Made by a program: the position numbers and the translations under genes. Shown here in pieces: positions 3,316 through 22,340 of a stretch of 24,838 bases of DNA (position 1 is its first letter; each line of letters starts with the position of its first letter). The notes under the pieces are model-generated. The model was given only the letters and a program-made list of their open reading frames with translations. It was not told where the DNA came from and ran no database searches. The DNA lies in the IMG/VR virus record IMGVR_UViG_3300032322_001976, positions 1 through 24,838 of that record; one strand, written 5' to 3'. The stretch comes from a virus.

Positions 3316-4233
3316 TCAGGCTTTTTCCAGCACCATGACAGAACGGGGGTAGTAGATGGCTACGCCGCCATGCCGAGCGTGGGCTGGCACGGTGTACTCC
3401 AGGCCCTGCAGCTGAGCCGCGAAGAACTCCAGTGGCTGGGGAAGGTGCATCTCCAGCTTGTCCGGGTTGCGGTTGTAGCAGATGACCCGGTCTTTGCTCA
3501 GGAAACCACCAGAGTTATTGGCGGTGAGTTCATTGATAGGCTCGATGTCCTTGATCACCTCGTTGGTATTGAGGAAGAACTGCATTACAGTGGTGTCGGA
3601 TGCAGTCCCGAGCTTGGTGGTGGAGATCTTACGGAACACGTTGTAGGGCACCAGCATGGTGTCCGGTTGTTCCTTCATGTTGCTGTTGCTAACAAGCCGG
3701 GTGACCGGCTCGTTGAGCAGCTCCAGTAGTTCGTCAGCAGTGATAGTGGAGCTATCAAACCACTTGTCGGGGACAATCTTGTCCAGTTGGTCTGAGTTAA
3801 AGAAGCCCCGGAGGCCAGCAGCCGTATCACCGAAGTACGCGATGCGTTGCATGGTCTCTTCGTAGACGCGCCGCACAGCATTGGCCCGACGCTGCTCCAA
3901 ATTGGTGTTGGGGACTTCAGCGGCAGCACGGAGTTCCTGCACGGTGTAGCCGAAGGACGAACCGTAGGAGTCCACCTTGTTGGTGACCTCGCGTCTGAAG
4001 ACGTCAGCGCGGGGCAGATCCTTCGCCTTGTCGGCTATCCGCCGCATGGACCCCTGTTGGTCGTAGATGCGGTAGGTGTAGCTGTCCTTGCCACGGGAAA
4101 CCTCGCTGTTGATAGGCAGCACCTGGCTGTACTTAATGTCCGCATACTCAACCTGAAAGACTTCAGGAAGAATGTGCTCAAGTTCCCTCGCGAGGAAGAA
4201 ACCGATGGTGTCGAGGCGGATGTCGTTGGGCAT
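3316..4233 (-). CDS. Major capsid protein (DUF2184-like)
   Basis: A 305-residue protein if started at ATG 4233. This start is chosen because GAGAGG lies 8 bases upstream, while the 28-residue extension available upstream is low-complexity. The N-terminus ('LARELEHILPEVFQVEYAD') and the following 'QVLPINSEVSRGKDSYTYRIYDQ' block match the DUF2184 type of HK97-fold capsid proteins. A G-G-F loop near residue 240 and a C-terminal 'ARHGGVAIYYPRSVMVLEKA' fit the end of that fold. It follows the prohead protease and a cement protein in the usual head-gene order. It assembles as the icosahedral shell. Confidence 0.85.
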   Translation of the reverse strand: MPNDIRLDTIGFFLARELEHILPEVFQVEYADIKYSQVLPINSEVSRGKDSYTYRIYDQQGSMRRIADKAKDLPRADVFRREVTNKVDSYGSSFGYTVQELRAAAEVPNTNLEQRRANAVRRVYEETMQRIAYFGDTAAGLRGFFNSDQLDKIVPDKWFDSSTITADELLELLNEPVTRLVSNSNMKEQPDTMLVPYNVFRKISTTKLGTASDTTVMQFFLNTNEVIKDIEPINELTANNSGGFLSKDRVICYNRNPDKLEMHLPQPLEFFAAQLQGLEYTVPAHARHGGVAIYYPRSVMVLEKA

Positions 4234-4241
4234 GATCGGAG

Positions 4242-4247
4242 CCTCTC
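4242..4247 (-). promoter_or_regulatory. Ribosome binding site of the major capsid gene
   Basis: GAGAGG on the minus strand lies 8 bases before ATG 4233. It is one of the few clear Shine-Dalgarno sites in the window and decides the capsid start over the longer frame. It overlaps a CTCGCGAG palindrome (4245-4252). Confidence 0.6.
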
Positions 4248-4313
4248 GCGAGGGGGGAAAACAGGAAGGGACTGGGGGGACTAAGGGTTGAAGATTCCGG
4301 CGAAGCCGGAGGA

Positions 4314-4937
4314 TCAATCGGCGGTGAAGGTGGCGGCAACCATCTCGATCTCCAGGAGAGCGAGGCCCGCACCGGAGGTCTTGCTCAAGAAGCGAGCACC
4401 GTTGGTGAATTGGGTGGTCCGGGTGGCCGAGAGCGTGGTGCAGAATCGACCCTGGAAGGCGCCGGCCACCGTGGCGGAGTGATCGACGTCCCAGAAGCGG
4501 ACGGGGCTGGTGAGACTCACGGCCTCGGTGACAAACACCCAGATCTGGCCCCGGCGGAGGCAGTTGAGCGCCCTCCGAGTGGGGTAACCAGGGCGGCCAT
4601 CGGTGGCCAGGTTGGTGCCGGGGATGCCGGTCGAGAGGTAGCTGGCGCTGCCGGAGGCGACACCTTCAAAGGTGAAGGAGTCGATCAGGATGCCCATGTT
4701 CCCGGTAGCACCGGTCGACAGGGTGAGGGCGTTGTCGTCCCGACCGGCTGTTGTGTCAACCTGGACCAGGGCTCCAAAGGGCAGAGCCCCTGCGGTCTGG
4801 TTGATCCCGCTGAACTGGTCGTAGGAGTTCAGGTTGCCCAGCATGCCTTCATGGGCGGCTGCTGAAGTGAAGGGGTAGCTGGACTGAACACCTTGAGGAT
4901 TGGTGACCGTTGTCGGTGTGAAGGCTACAGGGGACAT
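4314..4937 (-). CDS. Structural cement / capsid decoration protein
   Basis: A 207-residue protein between the prohead protease and the major capsid protein. The N-terminal part has 'AAAHEGMLGNLNSYDQFSG'. The centre has 'DGRPGYPTRRALNCLRRGQ' and then 'VRFWDVDHSATVAGAFQGRF', a layout I associate with Gp24-type structural cement proteins. It is beta-rich, with many Thr, Gly and Ser residues. Such proteins bind the outer surface of the shell and stabilise it. Position and motif support the role. The exact family label is less certain. Confidence 0.7.
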   Translation of the reverse strand: MSPVAFTPTTVTNPQGVQSSYPFTSAAAHEGMLGNLNSYDQFSGINQTAGALPFGALVQVDTTAGRDDNALTLSTGATGNMGILIDSFTFEGVASGSASYLSTGIPGTNLATDGRPGYPTRRALNCLRRGQIWVFVTEAVSLTSPVRFWDVDHSATVAGAFQGRFCTTLSATRTTQFTNGARFLSKTSGAGLALLEIEMVAATFTAD

Positions 4938-4988: not shown

Positions 4989-6311
4989 TCAGCGCTTGCG
5001 AGAAGCGGTCAGGGGTTTCCGCCAGTCTTGGGTGACTTTGCTGGCGTAACCATCCGAGGCGGCAGCTGCGTCCTTGCGCTGGACACCTCGGAGGGCGGTG
5101 CGGAGCCGGCCTGTGGAATCAGTGGAGGCGGAGTCTCCTCTTGAAGAGGGGGGCTCGGGGTCTTCGGTTGTGTCGCTGGCGTCGAGTGTGGCCAGGGCAC
5201 CTTCGACGCGGCCACGCATCAACTCGACAGACATTTCATCGTCAGGGGCTTCGCCGAAGATGTTCTCGTAGGCGGCGATGTAGAGGTCGTCATCCCCAAT
5301 ACCATCGAAGACGAAGTCGTCGTCAAAGGCGGGGGCGAGACGGCGCAGTGTATCTAAGCGGGCGGACACAAGTGCGTCGATGCGCTCAGCGGGAATCTGG
5401 GCGAGGACTGCGTCAATGTTGTCCTCGTCTAAGGTGATTTCGCCCTCGGGGGCTTCATCGAGCGCAGCTTGCAGGCCGTCAGCGCGGCCCTCGGCGGCTT
5501 CTTTTTCAGCCTCAACATCGCTGAGGTCTGCCTTCAGGGTGGTGACTTCTTCAACCAGCGCGGTGTTTGCAGAGCGTAAATCACCAATCTCCTTCGCACT
5601 GTCACGCACGAATGCTTGGATGAGCGGAGCGACATCGGAGGCGACATCGACGTCGACCCCATCGAGCTTGATACGGACAGTGGACATAGCTGGGATTGCG
5701 GGGGTTACGGACTCGGGGGGATCGAGAAGTTCCTGATCGAAAGATACTGCGGACGCGGAATCCATCTCATCGAGGAGGAGACGAACTTCGGGACCGGCCC
5801 GTCCCTTGGGGACGATGGCGATGTGGTTGACACGGATGTTGCGTTGGACACCGTCGTAGGCTTCGCCCGAGGGTGTTTTACCGGGGGTGGGGTCGTAGTC
5901 GACCCTGTATCCGGCGGAGACTTCGACTGCGTGATCGGCAGAGTCCTTGTTTTGGATATTGGTGATCGACTTCTTATCTGTGACGAGAAGGGCTACTTCA
6001 ACAAAGCCGTCACTGAAGTGGACATGAGATCCCGCATGCCCTATTTGAAACATCTTGGTATTTTCCGCGTCAAGCAATGAGGGCGGATGCCTCCAAGTGA
6101 CCGGCTTCATCCCGAAGGAAGCCAGTGTTTCCGGCTTGCTTACTTCCTCCTCAGGGCGGTATTCCGTCTCGATGGAGCCGTCTGCACGGCGGTATTTCTG
6201 GAGGCCGGTGCGGGCTGTTCGGGCGCGGACCTTGAGGTAGCCCGTTTCCCGGTCGATCTCGCTACCCACGATGGGCAGCGACAGGAAGTCGTAGCGAGTG
6301 GCTGTGATCAT
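4989..6311 (-). CDS. Prohead protease fused to scaffold (DUF2213-like)
   Basis: A 440-residue protein. Residues 1-180 match the DUF2213 family: 'VTWRHPPSLLDAENTK', 'VEVSAGYRVDYDPTPGKTPSGE' and 'IRVNHIAIVPKGRAGPEVRL'. His75, Ser132 and His163 are candidate catalytic residues of a herpesvirus-like assembly protease. Residues about 230-295 are a long charged coiled coil, followed by an acidic region (about 305-375) and a basic Ser-rich tail, as expected for an internal scaffold removed during maturation. A 6-bp hairpin ends two bases before its ATG. It precedes cement and capsid genes in the canonical order. Confidence 0.85.
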   Translation of the reverse strand: MITATRYDFLSLPIVGSEIDRETGYLKVRARTARTGLQKYRRADGSIETEYRPEEEVSKPETLASFGMKPVTWRHPPSLLDAENTKMFQIGHAGSHVHFSDGFVEVALLVTDKKSITNIQNKDSADHAVEVSAGYRVDYDPTPGKTPSGEAYDGVQRNIRVNHIAIVPKGRAGPEVRLLLDEMDSASAVSFDQELLDPPESVTPAIPAMSTVRIKLDGVDVDVASDVAPLIQAFVRDSAKEIGDLRSANTALVEEVTTLKADLSDVEAEKEAAEGRADGLQAALDEAPEGEITLDEDNIDAVLAQIPAERIDALVSARLDTLRRLAPAFDDDFVFDGIGDDDLYIAAYENIFGEAPDDEMSVELMRGRVEGALATLDASDTTEDPEPPSSRGDSASTDSTGRLRTALRGVQRKDAAAASDGYASKVTQDWRKPLTASRKR

Positions 6312-6338: not shown

Positions 6339-7415
6339 CTAGACGTATTTCCGCCTTAGTTGCATAGCAGCTTCGTGGTCTTTTATTAGACTGTTGTTTA
6401 GGCTGCTGTAAAAGCCCTTTATTACGGGCAGCGCGGTGTCGAAATCCCCGTTGTTAACCCGCCTTTCTACAAGATCCAGCTTGTCGTCCCACCTAAAATC
6501 AAACTCCCGTCTTGCCCGAGGGGATAATCCTATCCTGTATGGGACTTCCCTCATCTCTTCGCTTAAGAAAGTCCCTGCTTCAGATTCGTGAGCTAGAGAG
6601 GCGAGCCCGAAGTCGATAAAGCGAAGGTCTTTTGTCTTGCGGTTATACAAGATATTATTTGAGTGTGCGTCGTTGTGGATTAACCCGTGGGTGTGCATCA
6701 CCCTGTAGGCTCCGTGCATGCTCTTCTTAGCGGATAGTGGCGCCCGTTCGTCCACTCCATAAAATGTGCTCCAGGTCATTTCTGACAGTGGTCTATGGTT
6801 AGGGAGATGCTCCATAACCATTACCCTGTCTGAAGCTTTGAACAACTTAGGTGCAGGGACCCCAATGTCATTGGCGTACTTGTGAGCCTCAGCTTCCGCT
6901 GTTATTGTCAGGTCGTCGCCACTTGAATAGCGGGGGTCTCTGCGGTCACCATGATTGTACTTTAGGCCGTATTTCTCAGAGGGGTGTACGATGTAATTGC
7001 CGAATGCTCCACGCTCTGAGCAGGCCCGTACTTTAGGCGTGAAAGCGTCGGTTATGTAATTAGTAATACCTTGAGCAGCACACGCAGCGGCGTGAGCTTT
7101 CTTGTTTTCTTCAAAGACGCTCCATTTCTTGCCACCCTTCCGGGCTTCCGCCTCGATCCGATCCCAGTCTTCGCCGGGGGTGGAGAAGCCTTTCCAGTTG
7201 GGATCGCGGCGGCCCCAGCGGCGGAGCGCTGCACGACCGAGAAGGGCTCCGCCAAAAACAGCGCCTGCCCCGAGGGCGACCTTGCCAATCAGGCTCGGGG
7301 TGATCCGGGAGGATGTGGACGTTGTCTTCTTAGAGCACTTCTTATTAGCGGGGATGCCGGATTTCCCGCACTTCTTGTCCAAACGCAGCTGCGCTGCGGT
7401 CAGTTGCAGTTCCAT
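6339..7415 (-). CDS. Membrane-anchored protein kinase-like protein with cysteine module
   Basis: A 358-residue protein. Residues 16-27 are the cysteine module 'CGKSGIPANKKC' and residues 43-63 are a Gly/Ala-rich hydrophobic segment, probably membrane-spanning. From about 130 a protein kinase fold follows: a Gly-rich strand ('RGAFGNYIV', 135-143), candidate ATP lysine Lys152, alpha-C Glu near 174-176, hinge 'VMVMEHLP', catalytic loop 'HNDAHSNN' (247-254, base Asp249, metal Asn254) and 'IDFG' (Asp268). All key residues are present, so it may phosphorylate a host or phage protein, lipid or sugar. The motifs recall RIO/Bud32/Kdo-kinase-like families. It overlaps the DUF6321-like gene by 16 bases. 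The substrate is unknown. Confidence 0.8.
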   Translation of the reverse strand: MELQLTAAQLRLDKKCGKSGIPANKKCSKKTTSTSSRITPSLIGKVALGAGAVFGGALLGRAALRRWGRRDPNWKGFSTPGEDWDRIEAEARKGGKKWSVFEENKKAHAAACAAQGITNYITDAFTPKVRACSERGAFGNYIVHPSEKYGLKYNHGDRRDPRYSSGDDLTITAEAEAHKYANDIGVPAPKLFKASDRVMVMEHLPNHRPLSEMTWSTFYGVDERAPLSAKKSMHGAYRVMHTHGLIHNDAHSNNILYNRKTKDLRFIDFGLASLAHESEAGTFLSEEMREVPYRIGLSPRARREFDFRWDDKLDLVERRVNNGDFDTALPVIKGFYSSLNNSLIKDHEAAMQLRRKYV

Positions 7416-7717
7416 TTCCGCAGCGACTTGTTGATCCGAGAATCGGGATCATTCGCGGTGGCCGCGCTGGTTAGCTTCCGCTTCATCCCCGACATGCGGG
7501 AGCAGAACCTCCGCCGTCGTTCTGCTCTTGCCGATCCGGGTTTTAGCTTCGACGGGTCTGTTGTTACCGCCAGGGAGAGCTTTGAGCCTGGGTTCTGCTT
7601 GCGGTAGGAGGCGATGCCCTTGGCGTTCAGGCCGCCCTCGGGGTTCTTCCCTTCCTTGCGTTGCCAGGCGGGGGATTTGTTGTCGAGGCGGATGGTGAGA
7701 GGTGTGAGGCTCCCCAT
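7400..7717 (-). CDS. DUF6321-like protein
   Basis: A 105-residue basic protein started at ATG 7717, one base after the previous stop. A longer TTG start at 7732 would overlap that stop. It contains 'SPAWQRKEGKNPEGGLNAKG', 'SYRKQNPGSKL', 'RRRRFCSRMSGMKRKL' and 'NDPDSRINKSLRKWNC'. I recognise this as the short Lys/Arg-rich domain labelled DUF6321, widespread in cyanophages and other marine phages, with no established function. It sits inside the cysteine-module cassette, which hints at a virion or DNA-associated role. Family recognition is strong and function unknown. Confidence 0.8.
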   Translation of the reverse strand: MGSLTPLTIRLDNKSPAWQRKEGKNPEGGLNAKGIASYRKQNPGSKLSLAVTTDPSKLKPGSARAERRRRFCSRMSGMKRKLTSAATANDPDSRINKSLRKWNCN

Positions 7718-7718
7718 C

Positions 7719-8573
7719 TCAGCTACCGCCAAACAGCTCGCGCTTCTTTCTGATCAGCCCGATCTGCGTCTTCCTCGCGGCCCGGCCAACCTTCTTGAGA
7801 TCGGACTGGGCCCTGGCTCTTGCCATACCAACCGTAGGGCCGGCGGCTGTTCGTGCCTGAGCCATGGCGGCCTGGGTCTTCGCCATTCCCTGGTTGAGGC
7901 CCGCCTTGACCTTGGCGACTGTCGGGCCAGCGGCCTTCTGCGCTTTGGCGAATCCAACCTTAGCTGTGGCCATGCCAGCCTTGGCCGCCTTGCGGGCGCG
8001 GACCTTGGAGAGGGGGGCTGCGCCGGAGGCCAGCATGGTCCGGGCCTGGGATCGAGCAGCACTGCGACCAGCGGGGCCTTGACCCATGCCGGAGTTACGG
8101 ATGGTCTTGGCAACGTTGAGGTTGGAGAGTGCGTTCTTCTGCATGCCTCGGTACTTCATGGCTCCGACCGTGCCTGCGGTGACTGCGCCTGCGACAGCAG
8201 CGACTTTTAGGCCGGTTTGGAGGGCGGAGCCCCCGCCTTTGTTGCACTTCTTGTTCTCGGCAATGCCGGAGTTTCCGCACTTCTTGTCTTCCCTCACGCC
8301 CAGAACACCCCGGACGTAAGCCCTGCTGCGGTTCTGGATCCCCAAATCGCATGCGTCGAGGTACTCCATCGGGGTAAGAGCAGCATCCATTGCGGCCTTT
8401 GCAGCGCAGCCGCAGGATCCTTTCTTTTTCCCCTTCTTCATGCACTTCGCGCAGGGCTTTTTCATACCCTCTTCGGCCTCGGGGGCTTCACTCCCTTCCA
8501 TCGAGGCTTTCCCTTCCATCGAGGCTTTCCCGGCCTTTTTGATTTTCTTCAGAAACGCGGCAGGGATTGGCAT
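7719..8573 (-). CDS. Ala/Lys-rich membrane-segment protein with cysteine module
   Basis: A 284-residue, strongly basic protein. Residues 15-26 repeat K-A-S-M-E-G twice. Residues 41-56 hold four cysteines (C-x2-C ... C-x-C) in a Lys-rich stretch that could bind metal. Residues 99-110 are the cysteine module 'CGNSGIAENKKC', followed by a hydrophobic Ala/Gly/Val segment (about 121-138). The C-terminal 140 residues are low-complexity Ala/Lys/Arg helices with an imperfect repeat around 'KAAGPTVAKVKAG' and 'RTAAGPTVGMARA', resembling histone-like or DNA-coating tails. The start codon touches a 12-bp hairpin. No enzyme domain is visible. It may be an internal virion or DNA-binding membrane protein. 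Confidence 0.7.
   Translation of the reverse strand: MPIPAAFLKKIKKAGKASMEGKASMEGSEAPEAEEGMKKPCAKCMKKGKKKGSCGCAAKAAMDAALTPMEYLDACDLGIQNRSRAYVRGVLGVREDKKCGNSGIAENKKCNKGGGSALQTGLKVAAVAGAVTAGTVGAMKYRGMQKNALSNLNVAKTIRNSGMGQGPAGRSAARSQARTMLASGAAPLSKVRARKAAKAGMATAKVGFAKAQKAAGPTVAKVKAGLNQGMAKTQAAMAQARTAAGPTVGMARARAQSDLKKVGRAARKTQIGLIRKKRELFGGS
8493..8528. repeat. Two perfect 18-bp tandem repeats
   Basis: CCCTTCCATCGAGGCTTT occurs twice in a row (8493-8510 and 8511-8528). The repeat is in frame within the Ala/Lys-rich protein and encodes K-A-S-M-E-G twice. It looks like a recent in-frame slippage duplication. Confidence 0.9.
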
Positions 8574-9256: not shown

Positions 9257-12200
9257 TTAGCTAGCCGTTTGTAGTCTGCGAGCTTTTACTAAAGCAGACG
9301 TGAGTGAAAACACTGCCCGCTCCGTAGCATCAGTCTTGGCCGTGGAGCCGATGGCGTTTTGCTGCACCTCGGCGCGAAGAGTTTTACTGCTGCGTTTGAC
9401 TTTGCCGGGGTCATAGCCTCCGTACCAGACGTCAATCATCCTATCTTCAATCTCTGAGCGAAGTTCCCCCAAGGCTTGCTGTTTGTTGCGGTTCAGGGCT
9501 TTAGAGTAGCGCTCTAGGACTTCGTCACTCTTATCCCCGAATAGCGCTTTGAGGTCGCCCTCCATAGGCTTACTTTCGGCGACACGCCAAATCACCTCGT
9601 TACTGAGTTCTTTGGAACGTTGGCGATCTACTGTTAGGTAGGTGTAAGCTTCTGAACGCAACTGCTTGTCAAACATATAGCTGTTCCTGCCATCCTCTTT
9701 GAGGCCGTGAGGGATGCCTTCGTTCTTAAGCATCCGGGTGGGGCTGCTAGCAAATGCTCGTTTGCCCATAGTCCCGTAGAACATATCCCCCTTGCTAACC
9801 CATGTACGCATGTTTTCGTCAGAATGTTTGAAAATACCAAAGGTAGGGCCTGCGACATTGACAACTTTCACGTCTCTATAGCCCATTTCAGCGAGAATAG
9901 CTAGCGTTTCGGACGCGACATTTCCTCCGTTGCTGTAGGCCAACATGTGGACAGGCTTGCCTGTTAGCCGGCGCTGAGCTGCAACAAACGCCGCTGCTCT
10001 AACTGCGTCAGGGTTAAAGCCTCGATTCTCGACGTTCCCTCGTAAATAGTCCATCTGCTTAAACGCATTCTTCATCTCGATAGCCGTCGTCGCTGGCTTT
10101 TGCGCCACCTTGGGGAGCATACCAATGCGAGCTTTGCGGGTCTTCATTGCAAGATCATCAGCCCCTTGCTTGATGGGCTGCGAGATCTTGTTAGCAAAGG
10201 GGAGGATGTCGTGTTCACCCCAGATCTCGCGAAAGGCTCCGCCTTCTGCCATGAGGTGGCTACCCTGACCGCGCTTGGTGAACGTACCGTCATCCGCGTA
10301 GGACAGCATGACTACAGCTCCTCTGCTGCTAGCTGTCTGCCCGTAGAAAGCGGTGGTGTTGTCTGTACTGCCAAAGCCAGTGTCGTAGCCCTTATCTTTG
10401 AAGTTGTAAGTGGAAGCTTCAAAGGGAGTGACGTCTTTTACATCTTTTCCTAGGCGCTTCGCGGCCTTCTCGTTGAACTCACGCACCATGTCTTTGGCCA
10501 TGGCTTCCGCGTCAATAGCGGACCTGGAGACGTTCCTACGGTAGGCCGTGATTTTTTGGGTCTTGGCCCCGAGCACGGCTGCCACGACGGCTGCGGCAAC
10601 AGCAGCACCACCGATCGCGACTTTCTTGAATGTGCCCTCACCCTCTTTTGGGGCTGCTGCAGATTGCCCACCTCCGCCAGAGGCGGCTTGCGCGGCCAAT
10701 GTCTTCTTGGAGCACTTCTTATTCTCAGCAATGCCTGACTTCCCACAGCGCTTGTCTGCGCGGATAGCGTTAAATGCTTCGTAATACGCATCGCCGCGCT
10801 TCTGCTTACCCTCCATGCGACGTTTTTGGATCTCCGCACGGGCCGCAGCCTCTGCCGCTGCGCGGGTTTTGTAGAGAGGTTTGCCGTCAGGCCGCTTCCT
10901 ATCTACAAACCCTGCGACAACATCAGTAAAGGACGCTTCTTCCTCAGGGCTCTCAAACTTGAACGGTGTCTTCTTGTTTCTAGGCCGTGCGACGACAGGC
11001 CCTACCCCCGCGACAGGGCGGGAGGGGTCGACCAGTCCTTCAAACGCCCCGGTGCCTTTGAGAATCGTCACCGCTTCGTTGAGGTCGGTAACCGGACGGC
11101 CAGCATGTTCGGCAGCGGCTTTCTGCAAGGTCAGCCTCGGGGCAGTCCATCGCCGGGTAAACATTGCCGGGTTGCCGCCAGTCTGGAAGTAATGATTGTT
11201 GACCAGATCTGCAGAGTGAGGCCCTTTGACAGCCTGCCGTCCTGCATTGGGATATAGCCGAGTTGCGTGGAACTCCGCATGCCCCTGCATGGCTGTCTGC
11301 ATGACGGGGAAACGATCTATAGGTACAGAGCGGCGCAGGCCGTTCGCGTTGTAAACCTTTGGAAGGTCGTCAACTACGGACTCAAAAAACGTGTCAAAGC
11401 TAGAGACTGTCTTAGTGTAAATGTCCCTGGCGGCTTGGTTGATAGGCAGCTCTGGCCGCGCCATACGCATGAGTTGTCTCTGCGATTCTTCCCGCGCTTT
11501 CCCTGTGAGCTTCTGGTCGTCGAGCATAAATGAGACAAAGCTCTGCCGACTCTCCGCATTAGAGAGATTGTAGCCTCTGTCTTTAGCAAAAGTTGCGATT
11601 GTTTTGTGTTCAGACCGGAGCTTTCCTGTGATTTGCTCCACTAGATCTCTACCTGCAACCTCTGAGCCTCCTGTTATTTTGTATTGATTACGAAGGAAAT
11701 CTTCTCCCGCAAGCGTAGCAAAGTAATATCCGTCCTTGCTTTTGAGGGCGTCGTTGATTTTTTGTTCGCCCAACCTCGGGGTGCCCCACATCGCCTTATA
11801 GGAAGCCTGGTGCCACGCTCCCAAGTCGCCATTGTAAGCAAGCGGATCAATATCCCGAACCCGCTTACTCAGATTAGTATTTGGGGCGAAATCAACAGGG
11901 CTTCGCCGCAGGAGATCGGAGGTGTCAGGTAGTTTCCGTCCTGCTACGCCAATTGACCCAAGCCCATTGCGGCGCCCCACCAGTTCAGCGACTGCAGCGC
12001 GGGCCTCCGTCTTACTGCGAGCGCGGGCGGGGTGCAAATCCAGCACAGTATTGAGGGCGTTGCCAACACTGTCGTCAATCTTTTTGCCAATACCCTCGCG
12101 GTAGGCGCGGGCATTGCTGAGAATTCCGTGAGCGCGAACGCCCCCGCCCAAGACTGCAAGGGCGATGCCGATTCCTATGGTGCCTTGCACCAGCTTTGCC

Positions 12201-12547
12201 TGTAGTTCCTTTTTCTCCTTAAGGTCTTGCGGAGAAGCTTTGACCGTACCCCGGATAAGAGCTTTTCTGCCCCCCTCTAACTCAGAGAAGTTTCCAGTAA
12301 GTAAACCTTTGCGCAGCCGGACTAAACCGCGCTGGGCATTAGCAAGGCCAGATAGGGGATCACTACCTTTACCTGCAGCACGAAGATGTCCATCACCGCC
12401 TTCACCTCGTAGGCGACAGTCCCACTCAGGAGGGATGCAGCGGTTCCCGCATTTCTTATTTGGAGGCTTGCACGAAACCCCGTTCCGCGTCTTGCGATCA
12501 AACCTTGCCTGAGTCGCGAGAAACAGAGTGGCGCGGATATTGGTCAC
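9257..12547 (-). CDS. Giant two-module protein with alpha/beta-hydrolase domain
   Basis: A 1096-residue protein whose GTG start overlaps the portal stop as GTGA. Residues 26-44 form a four-cysteine module ('CKPPNKKCGNRCIPPEWDC'), followed by a hydrophobic segment near 119-137. A long unrecognised region follows to about 590. Residues 601-612 are a second cysteine module ('CGKSGIAENKKC'), followed by a second hydrophobic segment (641-661). From about 740 an alpha/beta hydrolase appears: nucleophile elbow 'LAYSNGGN' (Ser872), strand 'VKVVNVAGPTFG', candidate Asp921 ('SKGDMFYG') and His947 ('IPHGLK'). It may be a lipase or esterase. It occupies the slot where a minor head protein usually follows the portal, so a virion location is plausible. 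Confidence 0.8.
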   Translation of the reverse strand: MTNIRATLFLATQARFDRKTRNGVSCKPPNKKCGNRCIPPEWDCRLRGEGGDGHLRAAGKGSDPLSGLANAQRGLVRLRKGLLTGNFSELEGGRKALIRGTVKASPQDLKEKKELQAKLVQGTIGIGIALAVLGGGVRAHGILSNARAYREGIGKKIDDSVGNALNTVLDLHPARARSKTEARAAVAELVGRRNGLGSIGVAGRKLPDTSDLLRRSPVDFAPNTNLSKRVRDIDPLAYNGDLGAWHQASYKAMWGTPRLGEQKINDALKSKDGYYFATLAGEDFLRNQYKITGGSEVAGRDLVEQITGKLRSEHKTIATFAKDRGYNLSNAESRQSFVSFMLDDQKLTGKAREESQRQLMRMARPELPINQAARDIYTKTVSSFDTFFESVVDDLPKVYNANGLRRSVPIDRFPVMQTAMQGHAEFHATRLYPNAGRQAVKGPHSADLVNNHYFQTGGNPAMFTRRWTAPRLTLQKAAAEHAGRPVTDLNEAVTILKGTGAFEGLVDPSRPVAGVGPVVARPRNKKTPFKFESPEEEASFTDVVAGFVDRKRPDGKPLYKTRAAAEAAARAEIQKRRMEGKQKRGDAYYEAFNAIRADKRCGKSGIAENKKCSKKTLAAQAASGGGGQSAAAPKEGEGTFKKVAIGGAAVAAAVVAAVLGAKTQKITAYRRNVSRSAIDAEAMAKDMVREFNEKAAKRLGKDVKDVTPFEASTYNFKDKGYDTGFGSTDNTTAFYGQTASSRGAVVMLSYADDGTFTKRGQGSHLMAEGGAFREIWGEHDILPFANKISQPIKQGADDLAMKTRKARIGMLPKVAQKPATTAIEMKNAFKQMDYLRGNVENRGFNPDAVRAAAFVAAQRRLTGKPVHMLAYSNGGNVASETLAILAEMGYRDVKVVNVAGPTFGIFKHSDENMRTWVSKGDMFYGTMGKRAFASSPTRMLKNEGIPHGLKEDGRNSYMFDKQLRSEAYTYLTVDRQRSKELSNEVIWRVAESKPMEGDLKALFGDKSDEVLERYSKALNRNKQQALGELRSEIEDRMIDVWYGGYDPGKVKRSSKTLRAEVQQNAIGSTAKTDATERAVFSLTSALVKARRLQTAS

Positions 12548-14451
12548 TTCTCGTCCTCGGGGGCCGGAGTCATCGTGAATATAGTCTGCTCGGGCAGGAA
12601 AGCGGTCAGCCCCTTCCGTGCCGCCCGGAGCGAGGCAAAACCGGTGACCAGCGGGCCAGGGAGAATCGCCCCATCGAGCTTGATTTTGGTGCGGAAGCTG
12701 GTGTACTTCCGCGAGCGGTTGGGGCCAATCAGCACTAGGCGAGAGAGATCGGGGCCGCCTGCGGCATCGACACGGGAGGTCTCACCTACCCTGCGGCCCA
12801 TGCTCATGCCGTCGATGCGCTTGACGACGTCGATTTCTAGATCGAGGGCCTCGTAGCTATCGGTCTTGGGCTTGGCTTTGGGCTTGGCGGCGGGCTCCTG
12901 CGGTTGAGACGCTTGAGACTCAGATTGAGACTCCCCAGGCAGGACACCCTCTTGCTCCGGCGGAGCTTCGCCCTCGGGGGGAATGGGTTCCCCGTCTGGC
13001 CCCAAGCCTTGTGCCGCGAACGACTGCGCTTGCAGTTGGTTCATGCTGTTCTCAAACTCCGAGTCCTGCTGCATCTCCAGCTGGGCAGATACATTTTCAT
13101 CGAGCACGGTCTCGATGCTGTACTCCGTCGAGCCAAACCTGTTGTTGCGGATCTCAAGTGGCTTGAGGGCGCCGATCGCGTGGTAGATCTGATCAACACT
13201 CGCTTGAGATGCGCTCCGCGCAGTTTTCTCCGTGTCTGTTTCTGTGAACACCGAGGGAAAGTGAATCTCCCAGCTGTCTGGCTCCTTGCCTCCCATCGGG
13301 CTTTCCTTAGCCAGCATGAAGAGCCTGAAGATGTCAGAGACGGCTTCTTGGCAGTAGACGGTCTGCCAGTCTTCGACAAGGGAGGCCCAGACCCGCTCCT
13401 CAAATCGACCTTCTTTCCCGAGGCCGCCGGGGCTGGTGCCCATCAGGATCGAGGCGGGCCAGCCGGTGGTGGCCTGGAGGTACTCCGCAAAGGGGGCCGT
13501 GGCTGTTGCCATATTGCCAAGCGCTCTTTCGGAGAAACCGATCTCCTCGCCTGTGTCGAGGATCATGCCACCGTAGACAGAGCGGGCGAGGTTGTTAATC
13601 TCCATCCGCTTCATAATTTGCTGGGTATTTCCCGCTTTCACCATGTTCATCAGGCCGGGAATTTTATGGTAAAAGACTGATGCGTCAGTTATGGAAGACT
13701 CCAACCCTCGGATAGCGGTTTCGTAGGTCTTCCACGCTTCCCAGACCACCTGTAACGGGGCCTGTCCCCAGCCGTTCTGTTGTTGACGCAGCCGCCAAGG
13801 CAGATACAATCCATCAAATCGGATCACACGGGTGTGGTGAACCGTGACATTAGTAGTGTTGGTTTGTTGGTTTGGGTCGAGTTTTTGATTGGTGGTGATC
13901 CGGTACGCCTCCGGCTTGGAGTGGTCCATGACGGACACATCCAGGGGGGTGATTTCGTGTCGGGAGAGGGGGCAAAGCCCACGAATGCCTCGGATCCGGT
14001 CGAAGTTGACGGGCTCTGCTGGATCCTCGACACCGTCGTCGATGAGTACGACGATAACGGCCCCGCCGTAGAGGCGTTGTAGGCGGATTGCCTCTGCGTA
14101 GGCACGGTAGAAAGATATTTGCTTGAGGTAAGCCTCAAAGTCTTTAATCTGGTCTATCTCTTTGGAAGACTTGTCTCCCCCTAGTGTGATCGTCGGTCTG
14201 TGTTTGAGCACAGCATCTGCAATTGCGTCGACGTAGCGCCGGGGGAGTCCTACGGAGTAGAGGGCTTCAAGCTCTGGGTGGGAGAGCAGTAAGGAAAAGT
14301 TTGGGCGCGTGTGTTGAGTCCTGTCTCGACCCAAGACCCCCATGCCGGTCAGGCCGTTAACCAAGGCACCGTCAATACGAGTGAACTCCTCGTCGCTACG
14401 GACATTAGCGCCGGAGAAGTTATCGGTAATTGCGGAAGATTCCTGTGTCAC
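12544..14451 (-). CDS. Portal protein (DUF1073-like)
   Basis: A 635-residue protein starting at GTG 14451. Its N-terminal 450 residues match the DUF1073 type of portal: 'YSVGLPRRYVDAIADAVLK', 'RLQRLYGGAVIVVLIDDG', 'GWGQAPLQVVWEAWKTYE', and 'LMGTSPGGLGKEGRFEERVW' near the clip/wing region. Residues about 470-540 are a Gln/Pro/Glu-rich linker. The last 100 residues form a small extra domain ending 'TIFTMTPAPEDEK'. It forms the dodecameric DNA channel and docks the terminase encoded just upstream. Sequence and gene order agree. Confidence 0.88.
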   Translation of the reverse strand: MTQESSAITDNFSGANVRSDEEFTRIDGALVNGLTGMGVLGRDRTQHTRPNFSLLLSHPELEALYSVGLPRRYVDAIADAVLKHRPTITLGGDKSSKEIDQIKDFEAYLKQISFYRAYAEAIRLQRLYGGAVIVVLIDDGVEDPAEPVNFDRIRGIRGLCPLSRHEITPLDVSVMDHSKPEAYRITTNQKLDPNQQTNTTNVTVHHTRVIRFDGLYLPWRLRQQQNGWGQAPLQVVWEAWKTYETAIRGLESSITDASVFYHKIPGLMNMVKAGNTQQIMKRMEINNLARSVYGGMILDTGEEIGFSERALGNMATATAPFAEYLQATTGWPASILMGTSPGGLGKEGRFEERVWASLVEDWQTVYCQEAVSDIFRLFMLAKESPMGGKEPDSWEIHFPSVFTETDTEKTARSASQASVDQIYHAIGALKPLEIRNNRFGSTEYSIETVLDENVSAQLEMQQDSEFENSMNQLQAQSFAAQGLGPDGEPIPPEGEAPPEQEGVLPGESQSESQASQPQEPAAKPKAKPKTDSYEALDLEIDVVKRIDGMSMGRRVGETSRVDAAGGPDLSRLVLIGPNRSRKYTSFRTKIKLDGAILPGPLVTGFASLRAARKGLTAFLPEQTIFTMTPAPEDEK

Positions 14452-14660: not shown

Positions 14661-16157
14661 TCAGGCCGCCTTGAGGAAGCCCAGGAGATCAACGGAGCCG
14701 GGGGCGGCCATAGCTGCCAGGGCCAGGGATATGACCGTGTCGTCATGGGCGGATCCCCCTGCGCTGCGCTTGCCTTTGGCATCCCGGCGGAAGGCTCGAT
14801 GCTCATCCGCAATGATCCCGTCAGGGAAGGTCAGGTCGTTGTCCTCCATCATGTACAAAGTTCTGTCCGTTATCGCGTTCTTGATCGTGTCGGACATGTA
14901 GACGAGTTCGATCTTAGTGCCGGAGGATTGCAGAGCGAGTGCTTCTGCGATGATGATGCCCATAGAGTTCTTTTCTACAATTACTTCTGATGGGAGGAAG
15001 TTGTCGATAAGGTCTTTGACCTTCTGCAGGCTGTAAGGCGAGGAGCGGTTGTTCTCGCGGTACATCGCCGCTACGCGGTTGGGCTTTGAGGTAATGTCGA
15101 GAACCATCGCGGTGAAGTAGTCATCGCCGCCTCCGTTGGGGTCAACGCCCATGGCGTAGATGCGATTGGCCATGCCGCACTCGGAGAAAGAGCCCTTGGC
15201 ACAGGATTTGACCAGGCTGCTCGGGTAGATCGCCGATGCTGTTGAGCCGAACTTAAGCTCAAACTCAGCATCCCACTGGTTCTGCGTGAGCTTCTCCTGC
15301 TTGCGGTAGTTTTCCGCCCAATTTGGGTCCGCACCGTATTGAGGGTGCATGGAGTAATGGAGGGCGACCCGTGCCCAACCGTCCTCTCTGCCGACTTCGT
15401 CGAGCATCGCCTGGAGGCCAACGAAGTCGCGTCTCTCGACGTAGTCGTACCAGTCAGAGGGGAGACCCGTTGTCCATTTTTCTCCAAACCAGTTTGACTC
15501 CATCTCTGGAGTGGAGACTACGATCACTTTCCCGGCCTTACCGAGTTTCATGAGGGAGGGGTTTGCACCCTGGTAGATGTCAGCTACGCCTTCGATAAAG
15601 GCCGCTTCGTCGAGGAAGAGAACGGAACAGGCGGGGATACCACGACCGCCCCGACCTGTTGCAGGGAGGAAGTGGAGTGTTCCTCGGCCACGCCAGGAAA
15701 GGCGTGTGTCGCTGTTGGACAGCCAGGTGAGGGATTCGTTCTTGAGAGACTCGACCATGAAGCGAACGCGCTTCGCTAGTTCCTGGGAGTCTTTCTGGGT
15801 CTTTGAGATGATTACAGCTGTGAAGCCGGGTTCGGTTAATGCCCTATTGGCGAGATAGTTACAGATAACTTCGGATATACCAATCTGCCGGGACTTGAGG
15901 ACTTGTACCCGCCGTGATCGGTGAAGGATCTGGACGAAGTCCTTCTGGAATTGATACGGATTGAATGGCTCAACCGATGCACCATCATCGTCACCGGTCT
16001 GGATCCAGGTGAGCGGGGCGAACTCCTGCCAGTTTTCAACTGAAGGGAGCGACGTCACCAGCTTTGAGCTGGCATGGAGCATCGCCGCAGCTTCCCTCAG
16101 CTCGGTCTCTTTCTCAAGCCGCGCTAGTCGAGTGCGAAGTGAAGCACCGTACTTCAC
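14661..16157 (-). CDS. terL: Terminase large subunit
   Basis: A 498-residue packaging motor from GTG 16157, which overlaps the small-subunit stop as TAGTG. The ATPase domain has a variant Walker A at 88-95 ('KSRQIGIS'), Walker B 'VLFLDEAA' with Asp183 and Glu184, and coupling motif 'VVSTPE' (214-217). The Walker A lacks the usual Lys before the final Ser; Lys88 may substitute, as in several phage terminases. The RNase H-like nuclease domain shows Asp339 ('MGVDPNGG'), Glu395 ('VIVEKNSMG') and Asp472/473 ('AHDDT'). It cuts concatemeric DNA and pumps it through the portal. Full length. Confidence 0.92.
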   Translation of the reverse strand: MKYGASLRTRLARLEKETELREAAAMLHASSKLVTSLPSVENWQEFAPLTWIQTGDDDGASVEPFNPYQFQKDFVQILHRSRRVQVLKSRQIGISEVICNYLANRALTEPGFTAVIISKTQKDSQELAKRVRFMVESLKNESLTWLSNSDTRLSWRGRGTLHFLPATGRGGRGIPACSVLFLDEAAFIEGVADIYQGANPSLMKLGKAGKVIVVSTPEMESNWFGEKWTTGLPSDWYDYVERRDFVGLQAMLDEVGREDGWARVALHYSMHPQYGADPNWAENYRKQEKLTQNQWDAEFELKFGSTASAIYPSSLVKSCAKGSFSECGMANRIYAMGVDPNGGGDDYFTAMVLDITSKPNRVAAMYRENNRSSPYSLQKVKDLIDNFLPSEVIVEKNSMGIIIAEALALQSSGTKIELVYMSDTIKNAITDRTLYMMEDNDLTFPDGIIADEHRAFRRDAKGKRSAGGSAHDDTVISLALAAMAAPGSVDLLGFLKAA

Positions 16158-16654
16158 TAGATGTCAACTACTGCGAATGGTGTCTCATCCCCACCGTCAT
16201 TCTCATTTTCCGCAGCTTCTAGTTGGTGGAAGCCTGCGGCAGCGGCGTTTGTTGCTGCCCCTGAAAGGAGCATGAGCCTCCGCTCCAAACGGGCGATGGT
16301 GACCTCCATCTCCCTCTGTTCCTGGTAAGCATTGGCGGAGTCCATGATGACCTTCGCGGCCCGGATGCGATCAGCGTCTTCCGATGTCGGGCTGTTCATG
16401 ATGGTCTGGAGGACGTGAAGGCATGCAGGAACAAGGCCGACACCTTGAGTTCCTGTCATGTCTGTCCGCTCTTGGAGCTTGCGGTTGACCACAGACATGA
16501 ACTGGGGTGTGTGCCTCCAGCTCCAGAGCGTTTTATTGGTCACTCCCGCCGCCTTGGCTGCATCTGTCATCGTCTTCCCTGAGACGATGGCGTCCGCCGC
16601 GATGACCTGTTTGACGGTTAAGCCGTCTGCATTAACGGGAATCTGGGCGACCAC
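16157..16654 (-). CDS. terS: Terminase small subunit
   Basis: A 165-residue protein from GTG 16654. Residues 12-50 form a helix-turn-helix ('VSGKTMTDAAKAAGVTNKTL', then 'WSWRHTPQF'), the DNA-recognition domain of small terminases. A long helical region follows (about 60-135), probably the oligomerisation domain, and an acidic Asp/Glu-rich tail. Immediate overlap with the large subunit confirms the assignment. It recognises the packaging site, probably near this gene. The upstream gap carries direct repeats that may be relevant. Confidence 0.85.
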   Translation of the reverse strand: MVAQIPVNADGLTVKQVIAADAIVSGKTMTDAAKAAGVTNKTLWSWRHTPQFMSVVNRKLQERTDMTGTQGVGLVPACLHVLQTIMNSPTSEDADRIRAAKVIMDSANAYQEQREMEVTIARLERRLMLLSGAATNAAAAGFHQLEAAENENDGGDETPFAVVDI

Positions 16655-17949: not shown

Positions 17950-18209
17950 GCCACCACCCCCGCCGTGTAGATCCGGCCACCGACATAGGGTGGATCGAGT
18001 CGCGCTTTAATTTGTCGCCCGCGAGCGCGGCGGGCTCGACGCTTGCGCCCGATCGGTGAGTCTGTGCGTAGGGTCAAGGGACGCCACTTCGGGCTGAGAT
18101 TGCTGTAGACCCTGTTGAGTTCACTCTTAATAACTGCGGCAAACTGTTCGCCGAACGTGCTCATGATTCTGTAGAAGGGGTGATGGGTGATGGGGTGTTG
18201 ACTAGGCAT
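17946..18209 (-). CDS. Small basic hypothetical protein
   Basis: An 87-residue protein. The start at ATG 18209 is preferred because GGAG lies five bases upstream and the ATG overlaps the previous stop as TAATG. An in-frame ATG at 18164 lacks such a site. The middle is helical ('FGEQFAAVIKSELNRVY') and residues about 54-68 are almost all Arg/Lys ('RKRRARRARGRQIKAR'), suggesting nucleic acid binding. No family is recognised. Confidence 0.55.
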   Translation of the reverse strand: MPSQHPITHHPFYRIMSTFGEQFAAVIKSELNRVYSNLSPKWRPLTLRTDSPIGRKRRARRARGRQIKARLDPPYVGGRIYTAGVVA

Positions 18210-18430
18210 TAGTTCTCCTCTCTAGTGGTCTCAGTCGGCGGCAGTACGCGCTTCAGCATTTGTGTGTACTCGTCGGACTGCCAATAGTGATGATCCCAGC
18301 CACACATGATTGCGTTGGCAAACCAGGAGATCATGGTCTGCTCGTCAACCGTGCCACCCGTAATTCGCATGAACTCAGCGGCCCATGCCCGTGCGTCCAT
18401 CGTGCGGACTAGGTTAATGTCTTCAGCCAT
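18209..18430 (-). CDS. Small hypothetical phage protein
   Basis: A 73-residue acidic protein from ATG 18430, with AGAGGA about ten bases upstream. It contains 'TMDARAWAAEFMRITGG' and 'MISWFANAIMCGWDHHYWQ', a pattern I associate with a widespread small phage family whose function is unknown. It overlaps the next gene by TAATG. Likely a real early gene. The role is not inferable. Confidence 0.65.
   Translation of the reverse strand: MAEDINLVRTMDARAWAAEFMRITGGTVDEQTMISWFANAIMCGWDHHYWQSDEYTQMLKRVLPPTETTREEN
18215..18218 (-). promoter_or_regulatory. Ribosome binding site deciding the 18209 start
   Basis: GGAG on the minus strand lies five bases before ATG 18209, within AGAGAGGAGAAC. It supports the longer start of the basic protein over the internal ATG at 18164. 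Confidence 0.6.
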
Positions 18431-21162: not shown

Positions 21163-21984
21163 TCATGGCGCGAGCCTCGCTTTACCCCAGCGGTTGGTCA
21201 TGTACCAACGAGCTACCTCAGGAGTCCATTTATGGAACTCAACCATGAGCAGTTCGCAGAGCGCCTGGATTTCAAGCTGGGCATCGAGCTTCGCTCGGAG
21301 ATCGAGGAAGTGCATGAGGGAGCGGAGGTTGAAGGAGACGACGAAGTTCTGCCGAAAATCGAAGGGTATTAGACTTCTTGCGTGTTCTTCAGCAAAACCT
21401 TGGCTTAGCTTTGTTGAGTAGACCTGTGCTAGGTAGACGCACAGGGCCTCATCGGCGTGAAGTCGGGTTTGCTCGTAAACATAGTCATTACCCTGACGAT
21501 CTTTGTATCGACCTACTGGTCTAAAGTAGACCAGATCGGAGATGTGCAAGCTATCAGGGTCATAGCCTTCATCCTCCGGGTTCATCCGCTTGAACCTATC
21601 CCCGGTATAACGGGATGACTGCACATCGAAGGAGACCGCAACGCGATGCGTCCGGGCTTGTTGCATCACGGAGTGAGGGAACCCCGCTGTCGCGATGGTG
21701 ATCTGGGGGTGTTCCAGGGGGCCGAAGTGACCCCGGCCTCCGGCGAGGAGGTGCTTGAGAAGGGCCTCGCCTGCTTCGGGCTCGGGGGGAGGAGTGTTGT
21801 CGATGACGGAGCCTTCGGAGTAGCACTGGTGCATAGCCATCCAGGCGATCTGGTTTGGTCTCTCAGTCGCCCCGAGGGTCCTCACTCGCAGCCTTGGGTC
21901 AGCTTTGAGGAGGCACTCCGGGGTGACTATGGGGTAGTCGGCGATTTGATCTGACTTCTCGGTTGCGGCGGGATTGGGTGTCAT
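21163..21984 (-). CDS. thyX: Flavin-dependent thymidylate synthase
   Basis: ThyX makes dTMP from dUMP using FAD and methylenetetrahydrofolate. The 273-residue start at ATG 21984 is chosen because it lies five bases after the previous stop; a longer frame (22068) would overlap that gene by 79 bases. The signature is at 111-126: 'RTHRVAVSFDVQSSRY'. It differs from the textbook R-H-R-x7-S form in the way cyanobacterial enzymes do. Also present are 'GHFGPLEH' (85-92) and 'NLRSLMHFLDLR' (219-230), which form flavin and nucleotide pockets. It boosts nucleotide supply for phage DNA synthesis. The enzyme looks intact. Confidence 0.92.
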   Translation of the reverse strand: MTPNPAATEKSDQIADYPIVTPECLLKADPRLRVRTLGATERPNQIAWMAMHQCYSEGSVIDNTPPPEPEAGEALLKHLLAGGRGHFGPLEHPQITIATAGFPHSVMQQARTHRVAVSFDVQSSRYTGDRFKRMNPEDEGYDPDSLHISDLVYFRPVGRYKDRQGNDYVYEQTRLHADEALCVYLAQVYSTKLSQGFAEEHARSLIPFDFRQNFVVSFNLRSLMHFLDLRAKLDAQLEIQALCELLMVEFHKWTPEVARWYMTNRWGKARLAP

Positions 21985-21989
21985 AGGAG

Positions 21990-22340
21990 TTAGGCGATAG
22001 AGTTGATAGAGAGGAGAGCCTTTGCGCAATCCTCTAGCTGTCTGTGGCGCAGTAAGTAGCGATAGCAAGCCCGAATGTCGGAGTTATCGCCGGCTGCCTT
22101 AAACAAGGTCGTGTTGGCAGTCTGGAGGATAGTTAGACGGCTGATCATTTCTGCAAGGATCACCGCCATGGGTGAGAGTACGGGCCGGTTAGACTGTTCG
22201 GCTTTTCCCCAAGCTTGCATCTCGCCCCAGAATGCGTTCCCGCGTTGTGTAGTGTCCTGAGCAGCTACTTCCCTTAGAGCCGTTTGCCAGGCTTGGTCAA
22301 ACTCCTGGTTATCCGGTTGTGTTTCAGTGGGGTTGCTCAT
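21990..22340 (-). CDS. Hypothetical protein upstream of thyX
   Basis: A 116-residue helical protein from ATG 22340. A longer start (22367) is possible. It contains 'FDQAWQTALREVAAQDTTQR', 'MAVILAEMISRLTILQTANT' and 'DIRACYRYLLRHRQLEDCAK'. It has no membrane segment and no recognised domain. It is five bases from thyX and probably co-translated with it. The function is unknown. Confidence 0.55.
   Translation of the reverse strand: MSNPTETQPDNQEFDQAWQTALREVAAQDTTQRGNAFWGEMQAWGKAEQSNRPVLSPMAVILAEMISRLTILQTANTTLFKAAGDNSDIRACYRYLLRHRQLEDCAKALLSINSIA

Follow-up and report, generated by a model that had tools for sequence, protein, structure and literature searches.

The gene at positions 6339–7415 (minus strand) probably encodes a cargo effector carried in the virion of a cyanophage, a reading to which we assign a probability of about 0.6. 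Its N-terminal module would be a loading or delivery signal shared with other proteins of the phage, and its C-terminal part an active kinase of an atypical, RIO/Bud32-like type. This reading is favoured because the module recurs in three ORFs of the window (the whole stretch of DNA analysed here, i.e., the complete 24.8-kb virus record IMG/VR IMGVR_UViG_3300032322_001976, positions 1–24,838), because the tag within the module is joined to varied enzymes, and because the breakpoint of a domain swap falls at the tag. Furthermore, the three S-CBWM1 kinases reported in virions are tagged and a fourth kinase is not; the window kinase is conserved at about 51%, versus 75–90% for its structural neighbours; and its catalytic residues are invariant and under purifying selection. 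We propose that the tag would recruit the kinase into the procapsid during head assembly, that the protein would enter the host together with the phage DNA, that the hydrophobic segment would insert and position it at the host membrane, and that it would phosphorylate a host protein, rather than a small molecule, early in infection.

Genomic context and relatives

The record is probably a fragment of a larger genome, since the longest relatives measure 64–76 kb. The order of genes on the minus strand is: terminase small subunit (16157–16654; phrog_2538, 5.6e-8), terminase large subunit (14661–16157; phrog_2, 2.9e-34), portal protein (12544–14451; PF06381, 6.1e-53; phrog_146, 5.2e-75), a 1096-aa protein (9257–12547), small ORFs, a basic 284-aa protein (7719–8573), a small basic 110-aa protein (7400–7732, start codon uncertain), the kinase, the head maturation protease (4989–6311; phrog_530, 1.5e-70; DUF2213, 1.5e-43), the structural cement protein (4314–4937; PF22758, 2e-16) and the major capsid protein (3316–4317; PF09950, 1.2e-51; phrog_264, 2e-75). 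The first-pass annotation of this DNA had placed the kinase beside the prohead protease, and the profile matches of its neighbour bear this out; the late expression assumed there is suggested by the position of the gene. The end of the 110-aa gene overlaps the start of the kinase gene by 16 nt, the kinase ATG lying inside it, as in translationally coupled operons. The 110-aa protein belongs to phrog_727 (unknown function); in two relatives (L014 and L017) a tagged protein carries it as a C-terminal fusion. The window also encodes a ThyX-type thymidylate synthase (21163–22068, minus strand; PF02511, 2.8e-39), and Rfam and tRNA scans of its whole length were empty.

A single-sequence search of viral contigs with the kinase returned no relatives; the family was recovered by searching with the portal instead. 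The kinase is found in ten IMG/VR contigs at about 51% identity, directly before the protease in all of them. The flanking proteins are more conserved (protease 75–84%, capsid 85–90%, 110-aa protein about 90%). By portal and protease the nearest isolates are Synechococcus phage S-CBS4 and Aphanizomenon phage CL131, and therefore the host is probably a cyanobacterium, most likely a freshwater one. Searches of phage isolates by tblastn found nothing with any of four queries: the whole kinase, the first 72 aa of it, the 1096-aa protein, and the kinase II of relative L011 described below. In several relatives, the DNA immediately upstream of the kinase holds short stretches resembling residues about 176–239 of the major capsid protein, at 42–56% identity (L016:18737–19078, minus, on the opposite strand; L005, about 14005–14133; L011, about 18075–18242).

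The kinase domain

The 358-aa product starts at an ATG and, by ORF, profile and fold evidence, consists of the tag, the hydrophobic segment, a linker and an atypical kinase domain. The latter (residues 134–358; 6342–7016, minus strand) is delimited by Pfam, residue conservation, AlphaFold and Foldseek. It contains Gly136 and Gly139 in 'ERGAFG', Lys152 (codon 6960–6962), His247-Asn248-Asp249 (Asp249, 6669–6671), Asn254 (6654–6656), and Asp268 in 'IDFG' (6612–6614). All features of the protein-kinase-like superfamily are present, i.e., the Gly loop, the VAIK-type Lys, the alpha-C Glu, the catalytic Asp and Asn, and the DFG Asp. The catalytic residues were said in the first-pass annotation to be in place and in order; the numbering proved right. 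Indeed, they are among the few invariant columns (including Gly136, Gly139, Lys152, Glu174, His241, His247, Asp249, Asn254 and Asp268) of an alignment of nine kinases, which comprises orthologues plus three other, very divergent kinases and whose non-query members are 16–42% identical to the query. Their invariance across such divergent sequences rules out a pseudokinase. The dN/dS ratio among close relatives is 0.10–0.20. Together with the position of the gene in the relatives, these values support the earlier claim of an intact kinase inside the head-gene cluster and point to an enzyme under purifying selection.

As to its family, Pfam gave matches above the gathering cut-offs for RIO1 (1.5e-8; 34.9 bits versus a cut-off of 22), Pkinase (2.2e-8) and ABC1 (1.3e-6); because the last two pass as well, the RIO1 assignment holds at clan level only. 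A profile built from the nine-sequence family matched protein kinases of solved structure at 3.5e-15, over a region reaching from the Gly loop to DFG. These scores put the identity as a kinase well above what chance would give. The first full-length fold was poor over the N-terminal 140 residues; the kinase domain was therefore refolded alone (AlphaFold pLDDT 80, pTM 0.80), and Foldseek matched this model to PRPF4B, A. fulgidus Rio1 and PRPK. The APE motif that marks canonical eukaryotic-type Ser/Thr kinases is absent after IDFG from every member of the alignment. Bud32 is the best NCBIfam match, but its score lies far below the equivalog cut-off (36.7 versus 125 bits), as does that of the Rio1 equivalog model (24.0 versus 480 bits). 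Rio1 and Rio2 are characterised by an STGKEA loop and a winged helix; here the loop reads ERGAFG and the N-terminus is made of the tag and the hydrophobic segment. The aminoglycoside kinase profile (APH, 22.8 bits versus a cut-off of 23.2) and that of choline kinase (22.6 versus 29) remain below threshold, and the Kdo kinase profile is not among the matches listed. The comparison with the RIO, Bud32, Kdo and aminoglycoside kinase families proposed by the first-pass annotation thus places the enzyme closest to RIO, Bud32 and ABC1, outside the specific definition of each. No family model supports an established sugar kinase; hence neither of the two outcomes that the annotation had named as refuting its view, a degenerate pseudokinase or such a sugar kinase, came about. 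Profiles of defence systems were matched through the generic kinase core only, and such an identity was discarded.

A module shared by otherwise unrelated proteins

The first-pass annotation overlooked a module at residues 11–60 of the kinase. It comprises a tag of the form CG-x3-I-x5-C (residues 11–31, RLDKKCGKSGIPANKKCSKKT; 7323–7385, minus strand; the exact pattern lies at 7335–7373, with a chance expectation of 0) and a Gly/Ala-rich hydrophobic segment (residues 42–60; 7236–7292, minus strand). The membrane anchor proposed earlier is suggested by this one, moderately hydrophobic segment (Kyte-Doolittle 19-mer, 1.67). When the kinase was searched against the window, two other ORFs matched, through residues 10–58 only. 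Overall, there are three window ORFs in which a basic CG-x3-[IV]-x5-C tag precedes a hydrophobic segment rich in Gly and Ala: the kinase, the 284-aa protein (tag 8244–8282, segment about 8157–8213) and the 1096-aa protein, which contains two such modules (tags about 12407–12460 and 10700–10756). The latter gave no Pfam match; a hydrolase-like 'AYSNGG' was noticed by eye. The 284-aa protein has, at residues 38–56, a second Cys-rich basic stretch (KKPCAKCMKKGKKKGSCGC), kept in relatives and distinct from the tag.

Tags occur 4 times in the window versus 0.045 in shuffled proteins, 7 times versus 0.01 in the first 50 kb of CL131, and 4 times versus 0.23 in S-CBWM1. A hydrophobic 19-mer lies at most 110 aa downstream of 64 of 95 unique tags, compared to 19% of control stretches from the same proteins, in a collection that is no unbiased sample, since nine tags were picked from isolates because they had the motif and most of the rest came from a pattern search. 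The domains joined to the tag include the window kinase, a second kinase family (L011 and others), further kinases (L065 and L075), J-domains (L017 and L077), LRAT-like domains (L043, L072 and L077; most of them short of the curated cut-off) and lipase/hydrolase-like (alpha/beta-hydrolase-like) domains (CL131 gp048). For some tagged relatives the Kdo profile exceeds its cut-off, and several of the tagged proteins looked at could not be placed in any family. The likeness of the L065 protein to an ADP-ribosyltransferase, seen by eye, received no support from Pfam. CL131 gp048 (L088:42705–48140) is 1811 aa long and bears five tags in the relaxed pattern, four followed by a hydrophobic segment; at least three stretches match lipase/esterase (alpha/beta-hydrolase) profiles, so that the polypeptide is a chain of tagged enzyme modules. 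A short conserved signal common to otherwise unrelated proteins of one phage is, by analogy with T4, what distinguishes internal head proteins of the CTS type, and the tagged proteins of the window have such a signal. The cysteine pair of the tag could form a disulfide or bind a metal.

The tag was looked for and not found in S-TIM5 (1–147 kb), around the head genes of S-CBS4, and in the initial 50 kb of both Mic1 and PSS2; therefore, it is not universal in cyanophages. Prokaryotic genomes gave one match, to the tag only, on a contig assigned by binning to Thermosynechococcus. In its strict DNA form, a pattern that misses variants, the tag was present in 0 of the 292 genomes searched from the phylum of this genome, so a host origin of the tag is unsupported. 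An unrelated-looking viral ORF (L051:8685–9020) ends in KCGNSCIDCSKKCHGG, whose spacing agrees with that of the tag, perhaps by chance or perhaps because the motif is more widely distributed. We consider it an even bet that several non-T4 cyanophages use CG-x3-[IV]-x5-C as a general signal for loading proteins into virions. The tag would then define an undescribed polymorphic effector system: kinases, hydrolases, J-domain and LRAT-like proteins would take turns behind a single tag and reach the cyanobacterial cell by injection, and the module could be repeated within a polypeptide.

Exchange of domains behind the tag

Conservation of the protein is uneven along its length. As compared to L009, L014 and L005, the tag is 83–91% identical and residues 38–110 are 75–80% identical, versus 38–42% for the kinase domain. 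Furthermore, the window kinase and kinase II of L011 have 373 nt in common at 86% DNA identity. This block runs through the upstream 110-aa gene and stops at the tag, some 80 nt inside the kinase gene; past the breakpoint, the two kinase domains are 16% identical. The pair represents a cassette swap that placed unrelated kinases behind the same tag. Within L005, two tagged ORFs share a block of 184 nt at 82% identity. Judged from these alignments, the pattern fits a conserved delivery part with exchangeable effectors.

Tagged kinases reported in the virions of cyanophages

Virion-associated kinases of cyanophages, of which the first-pass annotation was unaware, have already been reported, namely in S-CRM01, S-TIM5, S-CBWM1 (APH, ChoK and Rio2 types) and S-CREM2 (PMC10665884). 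The authors of the S-CREM2 study caution that proteins of this kind could have co-purified with the virions as contaminants (PMC10665884). Only four ORFs of S-CBWM1 are tagged, namely its RIO-, ChoK- and APH-like kinases and gp106, which has weak HNH matches below cut-off. All three kinases reported in its virions therefore carry the tag; a fourth, PknB-like kinase is untagged and is not named among the virion kinases (PMC10665884). This link between tag and virion is correlative, comes from one isolate checked and relies on a second-hand source. The S-CBWM1 tags have no hydrophobic segment nearby. Part of the tagged genes lie outside the head cluster; the tag is thus more than a mark of gene position.

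In two of these kinases, gp113 (RIO-like; L083:20360–21322) and gp161 (ChoK-like; L084:19825–20700), the annotated start falls downstream of the tag. Because the tag-bearing N-termini (MSKRCTKGKSCGATC... and MGKNCSKGKSCGSAC..., respectively) are in frame upstream of it, the annotated starts are probably wrong. The virion kinase of S-CRM01, a T4-like phage, lacks the tag, which is therefore not the sole route to the virion; its N-terminus, MISFDQFLSE, presumably resembles a T4-type capsid targeting sequence. The kinases of the T4-like cyanophages S-CRM01 (L086:1648–4113) and S-B68 (L087:1484–3424) carry another N-terminal repeat, LGLxYRGFGxWxxPQTG...LVPV, twice in S-B68, which is possibly an analogous tag.

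Competing explanations

The first-pass annotation had offered two roles, a packaged kinase acting at infection or a kinase phosphorylating a capsid or scaffold protein. The former is now better supported and the latter less so, since the module is shared with cargo-like proteins, the tag is present on the three S-CBWM1 kinases reported in virions, and a variable, swapped domain contrasts with a capsid and a protease conserved at 75–90%. A kinase that acts in morphogenesis, modifying a capsid, scaffold or protease protein without being delivered, with the tag as a docking motif for the assembling head, would account for the place of the gene directly before the protease and near the capsid gene in 10 of 10 contigs, and for the tagged 284-aa and 1096-aa proteins in the same cluster. 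However, its would-be substrates are much more conserved than the kinase itself (about 51%), an unrelated kinase replaces the domain behind the same tag, non-kinase enzymes bear this tag, and the head cluster does not hold all the tagged kinases of S-CBWM1; we regard such a role as unlikely.

Somewhat less probable still is a late, unpackaged kinase that the tag and the hydrophobic segment target to a host membrane (e.g., the thylakoid) to act on host signalling or lysis. Most tags are indeed followed by a hydrophobic segment, and kinases found in virions may be contaminants (PMC10665884); yet the S-CBWM1 tags lack a nearby segment although their kinases are reported in virions, and the gene sits in the head operon. 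The substrate could also be a small molecule (sugar, choline, lipid or antibiotic) phosphorylated by an enzyme of APH/Kdo type, which could nonetheless be packaged. We hold this to be the least probable of the three, with RIO1, Pkinase and ABC1 above their cut-offs and APH and choline kinase below, and with structure matches to Rio1, PRPK and protein kinases; in its favour, the fold is the same in both groups, and so is insufficient by itself to decide, the profiles of APH and choline kinase give weak matches near the catalytic loop, and Kdo passes its cut-off in some tagged relatives.

Significance of a proposed virion-cargo kinase

In a narrow literature search we found neither a common tag on virion kinases, nor its fusion to a hydrophobic segment, nor its shuffling among enzyme classes; the tag thus appears undescribed as a common label of cyanophage virion kinases. 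The virion kinases of several cyanophages have been reported so far without an explanation of their packaging or of their role at entry. Should the cargo reading be true, virion-delivered effectors would be predictable from sequence, and testable by deletion or transplant of the tag. There is also a consequence for annotation, as the tag is cut off by two annotated starts of S-CBWM1.

Comparison with known systems

The closest parallels are the virion kinases of S-CBWM1, S-TIM5, S-CRM01 and S-CREM2, likewise kinase-fold proteins encoded by cyanophages; three of those of S-CBWM1 bear the CG-x3-[IV]-x5-C tag, and kinases of S-TIM5 and S-CBWM1 are the best phage structure matches. The window kinase differs in that it has no detectable tblastn match to any phage isolate, carries a hydrophobic segment after its tag and is a putative virion protein. 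The kinases of T4-like phages differ from it in lacking the tag. Likeness to RIO and Bud32/PRPK lies in the RIO1 score above cut-off, the top NCBIfam match to Bud32, the Foldseek matches to PRPK and Rio1, and the missing APE motif; on the other hand, the scores fall far under the equivalog cut-offs, the Gly loop is GAFG, and the tag and hydrophobic segment replace a winged helix or a Kae1 partner. T7 gp0.7, the product of an early gene, is, like other early phage kinases, also phage-encoded and presumed to act on the host, but the window gene belongs to the head cluster and has a module in common with other proteins.

The principle of tagged internal virion proteins is already given by T4, whose internal proteins IPI–III are diverse and alike only in a short N-terminal targeting sequence; their genes lie close to those of the head, and they presumably function at infection (PMC3012670). 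The diverse proteins of the window phage with one short signal, encoded near head genes, resemble them; however, this tag contains cysteines, comes with a hydrophobic segment, and may be internal and repeated. In polymorphic toxin and MuF-type systems, a conserved N-terminal module precedes swappable enzyme domains. Neither an immunity gene nor a MuF domain was identified here, and the vehicle would be the head of the phage itself; nevertheless, the swappable enzyme domains behind a conserved module, with a breakpoint at the tag, follow the same design.
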